A stretch of 26,486 nucleotides of DNA from a virus. The notes under the pieces are model-generated. The model ran no database searches, was not told the origin of the DNA, and saw only the letters and a program-made list of their open reading frames with translations. Positions within the stretch are counted from its first letter, which is position 1. The number at the start of each line of letters is the position of its first letter. The translations under genes were made by a program, and so were the position numbers. The stretch covers positions 1 through 26,486 of the IMG/VR virus record IMGVR_UViG_3300042924_002095; one strand, given 5' to 3'. This document shows, piece by piece, positions 25,562 to 26,486 of the stretch.

Positions 25562-25876
25562 ATGAATGAACAATTTAACACGCTCGTTGAGATAGTTTGC
25601 AGGCACTACAACGCCGATCCAAACTTCGTATTGAGCCGCAACCACAAGCACACAAGCACCACGCCGCGCAACATCATTGCAACGCTATGGAGTCGAGGAA
25701 CAACGCTCCAAGAGACTGCTAACCTACTTGGCTGGAAGTCAGCGCAACAGGTCTGCCACGCTAAGCACCGAGTCGCAGCATTAAGCGAGCTGCCTAGCCA
25801 TGCTTACCGCTTGAGATTGATTCTTGAGGAAGTAACCGAGAAGATTCCGTTTCTTACCGCCGAGATTGAGAAATAA
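25562..25876 (+). CDS. Stand-alone DnaA domain IV-like protein
   Basis: 104 aa. The pattern follows the C-terminal DNA-binding domain of DnaA: an N-terminal helix IVCRHYNADPNFVLSRN (the family's V-x-x-x-Y-x-V-x-x-x-x-L-x-S), then TPRNIIATLWSRGTTLQETA (PRNI at 35-38, matching PRQIAMYL), then NLLGWKSAQQVCHAKHRV (HAKHRV at 66-71, in place of HA-x-x-K-I). The ATPase domain is absent. Domain IV of DnaA reads DnaA boxes at origins; a free domain could bind the phage or host origin or occupy DnaA sites. Other Trp-repressor-like folds are possible. It starts 4 bases after the preceding stop (TAAAGACATG). Confidence 0.68.
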   Translation: MNEQFNTLVEIVCRHYNADPNFVLSRNHKHTSTTPRNIIATLWSRGTTLQETANLLGWKSAQQVCHAKHRVAALSELPSHAYRLRLILEEVTEKIPFLTAEIEK

Positions 25877-25905: not shown

Positions 25906-26283
25906 ATGAACATTGACGAATTAACACTAGGACAAATTAAACAAATCCAAGCACTTATTGGAAACGCGCAACCACCATTGACAACCTTACAATCAACTCA
26001 TCCGATGATCGGGCGGCGTTGCTTAATCCGCACCTATTCAGCAGGTGTTCACATTGGAACAGTGTTGGATGTGCAAGGTATGGAGTGCCATCTAAAAGAC
26101 TCATTGAGGCTCTGGAAATGGGGGGGCGGTGGATTATCGCTTTCAGCAGTAGCAAACAATGGTATTTCTGGCGGCAGACTAAATAAGACAGGAGAAGTTT
26201 ATTTAACCAACGTGATTGAGATTATCCCTACTACACCAGTTGCAGAGAAAACATTCACCAAATTTATTGAGGATGAAAAATAA
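25906..26283 (+). CDS. DUF6948-like phage protein
   Basis: 125 aa. The core matches a small phage family I know as DUF6948: MIGRRCLIRTYSAGVHIGTV, then CHLKDSLRLWKWGGGGLSLS with the Leu-Trp-x-Trp motif, then AVANNGISGG and VYLTNVIEIIPTTPV near the end. Members are found in early or accessory regions of many phages; no biochemical function is known to me. The N-terminal 33 residues are an extra helical part (DELTLGQIKQIQALIG). The leader is A-rich (AACAAACAAACAAAG). Its end overlaps the next gene. Confidence 0.72.
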   Translation: MNIDELTLGQIKQIQALIGNAQPPLTTLQSTHPMIGRRCLIRTYSAGVHIGTVLDVQGMECHLKDSLRLWKWGGGGLSLSAVANNGISGGRLNKTGEVYLTNVIEIIPTTPVAEKTFTKFIEDEK

Positions 26284-26446
26284 TTTAAAAGACGCTCACC
26301 ACGGCCACGAAGCTAATACTGGCTTTAGCTATGGCTCTGGCTATGGCTATGGCGATGGCTCTGGCGATGGCTATGGCTCTGGCGATGGCTATGGCGATGG
26401 CTCTGGCTATGGCTCTGGCGATGGCTCTGGCGATGGCTATGGCTAA
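26273..26446 (+). CDS. Gly-Tyr/Ser/Asp repeat protein, possibly shortened by a stop
   Basis: 57 aa from ATG at 26273: MKNNLKDAHHGHEANTGF, then an uninterrupted Gly-X repeat (X is Tyr, Ser or Asp) to a TAA at 26444. This start was chosen, rather than one 19 codons upstream, because the longer form would be read inside the DUF6948-like gene and the chosen ATG overlaps that gene's end (ATGAAAAATAA). The stop lies inside the repeat: unit 21 reads GGCTAA instead of GGCTAT, and six more units follow. A one-base change would extend the protein beyond the window. The function is unknown; such Gly/Tyr/Asp-rich chains are flexible and may bind metal or self-associate. Confidence 0.55.
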   Translation: MKNNLKDAHHGHEANTGFSYGSGYGYGDGSGDGYGSGDGYGDGSGYGSGDGSGDGYG

Positions 26447-26486
26447 GGCTATGGCTCTGGCGATGGCTATGGCGATCGCTCTGGCT
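26321..26486 (+). repeat. Hexanucleotide tandem repeat GGC-NNT, 27 units, reaching the window edge
   Basis: 27 six-base units plus four bases follow without a break. Almost all are GGCTAT, GGCTCT or GGCGAT; exceptions are GGCTTT and AGCTAT at the start, GGCTAA (unit 21) and CGCTCT (unit 27). All three + strand frames are nearly free of stops: one gives Gly-X, one gives Ala-Met/Leu, one gives Leu-Trp/Arg-Trp. Unit gain or loss keeps the frame. Confidence 0.9.

Follow-up and report, generated by a model that had tools for sequence, protein, structure and literature searches.

A glycine-dipeptide repeat gene is the second gene of a widespread two-gene phage cassette

Introduction

The window analysed here, the whole of a 26,486 nt stretch of the IMG/VR viral record IMGVR_UViG_3300042924_002095, ends inside an array of hexanucleotide GGC-NNT units that stays open in more than one frame and carries a stop codon. 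This raises the questions of which frame is coding, whether the stop is real and what such a gene might do in a phage. We compared the array with that of a sister contig, IMG/VR 3300042475_002644 (L007/L009), which is practically the same phage, and with repeat loci in other phages, prophages and viral contigs. The features of the window are the following.

25906..26283, plus strand: DUF6948 gene (Pfam PF22253), 125 aa; N-terminal helix and predicted five-stranded Sm/LSm-like small barrel
26273..26283, plus strand: overlap of 11 nt between the start of the repeat gene and the end of the DUF6948 gene
26273..26486, plus strand: Gly-X dipeptide-repeat gene, truncated where the contig stops; its product is 84 aa long in the sister
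26333..26486, plus strand: hexamer array GGC-[TAT/TCT/GAT] of regular units, the last one incomplete
26444..26446, plus strand: TAA inside the array, in the 21st GGC unit; TCT in the near-identical sister contig; probable contig-end error
26477, plus strand: C where the sister contig has G (CGC versus GGC), the last of the three mismatches; probably an error at the end of the contig

The repeat array in the window

The repeat gene starts with an ATG at 26273, and its frame reads MKNNLKDAHHGHEANTGFSYGSGYGYGDG... with Gly as every second residue in the array. An earlier note on this DNA had described 27 GGC-NNT units. The 27 GGC codons up to the contig end are confirmed, but two of them (26303 GGCCAC and 26321 GGCTTT) precede the regular array and the last unit is cut. 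The hexamer array has a TRF score of 183-230. A collagen-like phage protein was rejected as an identity, since it needs Gly at every third residue.

A tblastn search of the repeat protein against phages returned no matches, probably because BLAST masks low complexity. The matches that the repeat itself gives in PHROG and Pfam (TrAA12, keratin head) seem to be artefacts of its composition. Some matches to the repeat pattern are (GGCTCT)n arrays read as (GS)n; these look like the antisense of other proteins and were set aside.

Pairing with an upstream small-barrel gene

The gene directly upstream of the repeat gene is a member of DUF6948, a family to which Pfam assigns no function (E 3.7e-20, 72.3 bits versus a Pfam cut-off of 27). 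DUF6948 loci were collected from phages, prophages and viral contigs; in 98 of the 108, the repeat gene lies directly downstream, and the remaining ten are contig ends or carry degenerate Gly-rich genes. When loci were instead sampled by the repeat, DUF6948 was found just upstream in 50 of the 59 with enough upstream sequence. The nine exceptions were inspected by eye: six (L047, L064, L104, L117, L148 and L151) have a divergent barrel-like gene in the same place, ending within the repeat gene or beside it, in L091 such a gene stands a little more upstream, and for L124 and L145 no relationship is apparent. The divergent small proteins from these loci define two further barrel families, which were then queried without reference to the repeat. 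The repeat gene is downstream in 75/77 and 70/71 of their loci, and a control on the 900 nt upstream of the same families finds the repeat in 0/74 and 1/68.

The repeat gene is the second gene of a widespread two-gene phage cassette, tied to an overlapping upstream small-barrel gene in hundreds of phages. Related Gly-Tyr-Gly-Asp proteins, whose existence in phages the earlier note had left to a search, do occur, downstream of barrel genes. Among the sampled hosts are Desulfovibrionaceae, Nitrosomonas, Neisseria, Sphingomonas, Bacteroidota, Syntrophomonadaceae and Pectobacterium. The gene pair is near-obligatory and occurs in the phages and prophages of many bacterial phyla. In plasmids, no DUF6948 relative of the window's protein was found. 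Overlap with the barrel gene is common among relatives, where the start of the repeat gene is mostly offset by -4 to -29 nt, and the two genes are probably translationally coupled.

Several loci depart from the simple pair. One phage carries two modules in succession (barrel, repeat gene, second barrel, repeat gene; L248:3001-4617). In L340, from a match at 2001 to the contig end, a second-family barrel gene is followed by a repeat protein that is not of the Gly-X type, LxG[ND]VTGLYGDVTGLSGDV; a scan of the collection with the pattern LxG[ND]VT matched this contig only. The phrog_18306 profile matches the repeat in its middle and DUF6948 at its end, which suggests a fused gene, but no example of a fused barrel-repeat gene was found in the loci scanned. 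In L278, an Ala-Met-frame array runs into a DUF6948 frame instead.

Predicted fold of the barrel proteins

The three barrel families are homologous by hhalign, with probabilities of 97.8% (E 1e-12), 93% (E 3e-7) and 79% (E 1.5e-5), compared with 0.1-0.2% for reversed negative controls. The AF2 model of the window's DUF6948 protein has a pLDDT of about 94 over most of the barrel. The model of the second family has a mean pLDDT of 94 and lacks the N-terminal helix. Both models show a five-stranded small barrel with a short inserted helix. The best 50 PDB matches of the DUF6948 model are Sm/LSm-type entries, with Z up to 9.0 (rmsd 2.0, 66 residues aligned), and the Foldseek matches listed for the second-family model are also Sm/LSm proteins with few exceptions (designed TIP60 particles). 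The best Z for this second model is 6.8, with Sm/LSm-type folds in the rows listed. Since the Foldseek E-values to Sm proteins exceed 0.001 and a Z of 6.8 is within the background range, the case for the fold rests on the uniformity of the matches.

Pfam LSM (PF01423) has no match in the window at E <= 10. Against Hfq and archaeal Sm profiles hhalign gives less than 1%, where the Hfq-Sm positive control itself reaches only 11.7%. Hfq is not among the structural matches listed, an absence that excludes nothing with this method. The barrel is thus predicted from the models to be Sm-like by fold, which is distinct from proven membership of the Sm family.

The coding frame of the array

To decide on the frame, we compared arrays from loci that had been chosen by the barrel gene. 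The encoded residues remain Gly-[Tyr/Ser/Asp/Asn], whereas the codons vary from phage to phage: Gly is GGC, GGT or GGA, X is TAT/TCT/GAT or TAC/TCC/GAC, and Ser is written as TCY or as AGY, depending on the phage. With these swaps, including those of the T/C third base, the residues in the frames other than Gly-X change entirely. Residues that are kept while codons differ point to selection on the protein between phages. The alphabet is also narrow: an NNY codon can specify 15 residues, of which X is mainly Y/S/D/N, whatever the codon set; in one barrel family, Ser is largely replaced by Asn/Thr. Within an array, the mean pairwise difference is 0.10 and 0.06 at silent sites and 0.46 at the variable positions X1/X2, and low silent-site with high X1/X2 variation is also the trend in the two other barrel families. 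The near-uniform silent sites indicate that unit turnover homogenizes them.

In frame ahead of the array, the repeat protein has an N-terminal motif that is specific to the barrel family: M.NLLK..HHGH, variants with MA.L[IL].G, or [KR]TINFEDSQNSY. In several loci of Bacteroidota type, the reading frame of the array continues into a conserved C-terminal domain that has no Pfam hit in the proteins scanned.

L063, L087, L276 and L277: C-terminal domain of roughly 150 aa, ...IDGxPTIIxSVRGNVAKGYIL...FAHGxTLxEA...GSCxxGRxxF...

The earlier note had read the gene as open in all three frames. Openness does hold inside the repeat, but the unit leaves no other outcome, since neither GCN-NTG nor CNN-TGG can include a stop. 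In the third frame, a stop immediately precedes the array; this frame is open only within the repeat, so it is no gene. Meaningful coding in all three frames is not supported: the openness is a by-product of the unit, and the products of the other two frames change with the T/C third base. The note had also allowed for another frame being the conserved gene; the homologues conserve the residues of the Gly-X frame despite codon change. The hexanucleotide repeat gene of the window is real and codes in the Gly-[Tyr/Ser/Asp] frame, and the two-gene cassette together with this coding frame can be regarded as practically certain. Gene finders at times pick the wrong frame for the array, and the cassette is annotated only as 'hypothetical protein'. 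Two public annotations, CV133_gene25 (L274:2786-3031) and UOF77468 (L278:1505-2077), either use the array's Ala-Met frame or start out in it, and are probably wrong-frame annotations.

The strongest competitor of a protein-level role, though an improbable one, is that the Sm-like barrel binds the array itself as (GGNNNY)n mRNA or DNA, possibly as a two-tier G-quadruplex, and that the peptide is incidental. Sm-fold proteins usually bind RNA, every array has GG every 6 nt, and third bases are near-invariant within an array. However, a nucleic acid ligand does not account for nucleotides that vary between phages while the residues stay Y/S/D/N, for the family-specific motif that precedes the array in frame, or for the Bacteroidota-type arrays that continue in frame into a conserved domain.

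Hypervariability of the array

The array is among the fastest-changing coding sequences in this analysis, beside a fold best known from RNA biology. In eight Pectobacterium/Dickeya phage isolates the DUF6948 gene is always 399 nt, whereas the repeat gene ranges from 162 to 270 nt with differences in multiples of 6. The flanks of phages Ymer and Amona have 0 mismatches over 1,704 bp and 4,057 bp (5.76 kb), but the arrays between these flanks are of different length and word order. These two arrays share more common order than shuffled ones (0/300 shuffles as good), but for most other isolate pairs the shared order is no better than shuffled, even for Ymer and Taid, whose partner genes are 99.7% identical. 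Pairs from IMG/VR with 100% identical flanks have arrays of 81 versus 141, 129 versus 225 and 300 versus 408 nt. Tandem paralogues of the repeat gene also carry a different array in each copy: five at L047:1692-2968, which have identical ends (MGLKAFLKF...EPNLTSAGATVVEE), and several on the minus strand of L104.

The isolate genomes are metaSPAdes assemblies of Illumina 300-cycle data (PMC11445585), so some of the order could be misassembled. Ymer and Abuela have identical arrays, so the differences are not noise in every assembly. We consider it highly probable that the arrays are hypervariable. The expectation that copy-number change alters length and keeps the frame is borne out by relatives differing in multiples of 6 nt, and a length-variable phage protein in the Gly-Tyr/Ser/Asp frame is strongly supported by near-identical phages that differ in unit number. 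A phase-variable contingency locus was rejected, as the unit is 6 nt, and the isolate length changes are multiples of 6 within the frame. For a diversity-generating retroelement, no reverse transcriptase family appears in the Pfam tallies of genes beside the sampled modules.

The array changes through hexamer units being gained, lost and reshuffled. Turnover via slippage or out-of-register annealing is the simplest explanation, as it would keep the frame and homogenize silent sites, and nearby recombinases (RecT, Erf and Bet in several relatives) could aid it. Selection would hold the X alphabet while the units turn over. One might dispense with selection and regard the array as a neutral or selfish microsatellite: any GGC-NNT hexamer would be expanded by slippage, and the pairing would reflect hitch-hiking within a single mobile cassette. 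Length and order that vary wildly between near-identical phages, and homogenized silent sites, are what slippage predicts. The restriction of X independently of the codon set argues against this reading, as does a pairing kept across barrel families that have diverged almost beyond recognition, and neutral repeats are expected to be lost, frame-shifted or altered in residue content. We judge it slightly less probable than the nucleic acid role.

The stop codon inside the array

The window carries TAA at 26444-26446, as the earlier note had stated for unit 21, but this stop is probably spurious. In the sister contig the position reads TCT, and the repeat gene there (L007 4001-4255) is open throughout, giving a protein of 84 aa (MKNNLKDAHHGHEANTGFSYGSG...GYGSGE). 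The two contigs differ by three mismatches (26445, 26446 and 26477) in an overlap of 4,581 bp. All three are within the last 42 bases of the window, and the preceding 4,539 bp have 0 mismatches; the probability of this placement, were the mismatches random, is about 8e-7. The TAA is therefore most likely a terminal assembly or sequencing error, a conclusion we hold with good confidence.

A single base toggling a long and a short form, as had been proposed, does not fit, because TAA and the sister's TCT are two base differences apart. A phage population with TAT/TCT and TAA forms of unit 21, and hence two protein lengths, would agree with the TAA standing in the submitted contig; against it, two base changes would be required, a further odd base (CGC at 26477) stands 31 nt beyond the TAA, and the 4,539 bp ahead of these positions are free of mismatches. 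No in-array stop was noticed in the printed arrays of relatives, read by eye rather than counted systematically. Such a toggle is quite unlikely. In the sister contig, the repeat gene is followed by a 244-aa gene with a RecT-like sequence, the family being assigned by eye.

Possible joint action of barrel and chain

The best overall explanation, to which we give a probability of roughly 0.6, is a cassette in which the barrel and the chain act jointly. The first gene (DUF6948 or one of its two sister families) encodes a small barrel protein of predicted Sm/LSm fold, and the second a disordered (Gly-X)n chain, with X being Tyr, Ser, Asp or Asn, on the short family-specific N-terminal motif. This motif may dock on the barrel. 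LSm domains of EDC3/LSm14 bind short peptides, and the SMN Tudor barrel binds (GR)n tails, a precedent for binding of a dipeptide repeat by a barrel. Direct interaction of the two proteins is slightly favoured.

The Tyr-bearing, Gly-spaced and Asp-solubilized chain could serve as a multivalent 'sticker-spacer' tail, so that barrel and chain might come together as an assembly or condensate inside infected cells, with an accessory function. Tyr/Gly low-complexity domains form condensates, and by this analogy a condensate-type mechanism is conceivable, if doubtful. The full two-component assembly system, in which an Sm-type barrel, possibly a ring, docks a hypervariable Tyr/Gly/Asp chain to build a condensate, the chain's length and word order being tuned by rapid hexamer turnover, is marginally more doubtful again. 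Its action is perhaps directed at nucleic acid or defence of the host, and that the role is an accessory or a counter-defence one is a guess. A modified peptide precursor with a microcin B17-like Gly-rich core and the barrel as modification or immunity factor, suggested by the short leader-like motif before a Gly/Ser-rich core, is very improbable, as the neighbour tallies are without YcaO, dehydrogenase, protease or exporter families (with the exception of one repressor-type S24 peptidase), the core order is not conserved and Ser is largely Asn/Thr in one family.

Relation to known systems

For joint action of barrel and chain, the closest parallels are eukaryotic SmD1/SmD3 and LSm4, Sm/LSm proteins with Gly-dipeptide tails, which likewise combine a small Sm-fold barrel with a Gly-alternating disordered chain. 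In phages, however, the chain is a separate gene, X is Tyr/Ser/Asp and not Arg, the array is hypervariable, and the barrels are outside Pfam LSM. Silk fibroin (Gly-X)n and the FUS/hnRNP [G/S]Y[G/S] low-complexity domains, whose composition is prone to assembly, share Gly at every second residue with Ser/Tyr, or a disordered Tyr-Gly-Ser composition; the phage chain is much shorter, Asp-rich, phage-encoded and paired with a barrel. The collagen-like (Gly-X-Y) tail-fibre repeats of phages are also Gly-periodic and variable in length, but here the period is two residues and the structural-gene context is absent. The C9orf72 GGGGCC repeat is likewise a dipeptide-coding hexanucleotide with several frames open, whereas here one frame with a normal start is conserved and the others are by-products.

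Searches for DUF6948, the peptide strings and related terms found nothing relevant in the literature covered, the scope of which excluded subscription papers and preprints. The paper on the Ymer-genus phages (PMC11445585) does not contain the words glycine or hypervariable, and 'repeat' there refers to CRISPRs. Tandem repeats as such are not new, but an Sm-like barrel with a near-obligatory hypervariable Gly-dipeptide partner is apparently undescribed. If barrel and chain assemble, the cassette would provide an experimentally accessible counterpart, encoded by phages, of the Sm/LSm proteins that carry low-complexity tails, and the importance of sequence order in disordered chains could be studied in a natural setting. 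The pair further provides a concrete first test of what DUF6948 does.

Genomic context

The genes next to the module are diverse early or accessory genes, including C5 and N6/N4 methylases, RecT, YqaJ, HTH proteins and AAA_24, with one Acb2/Tad1 hairpin, and this diversity yields no functional hint. In Ymer, the gene pair forms an island whose coding strand is not that of the genes directly beside it. Diverse neighbours and an opposite-strand island give the pair the look of an accessory cassette. In the window, the gene at 25562-25876, two genes upstream of the repeat gene, has a match to the DnaA C-terminal HTH domain that falls short of the Pfam cut-off (E 1.3e-4), and 1826-2812 encodes an SU10-type major capsid protein (E 1.8e-51). 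The window's structural genes are encoded by the minus strand, and the small genes that surround the repeat by the plus strand.
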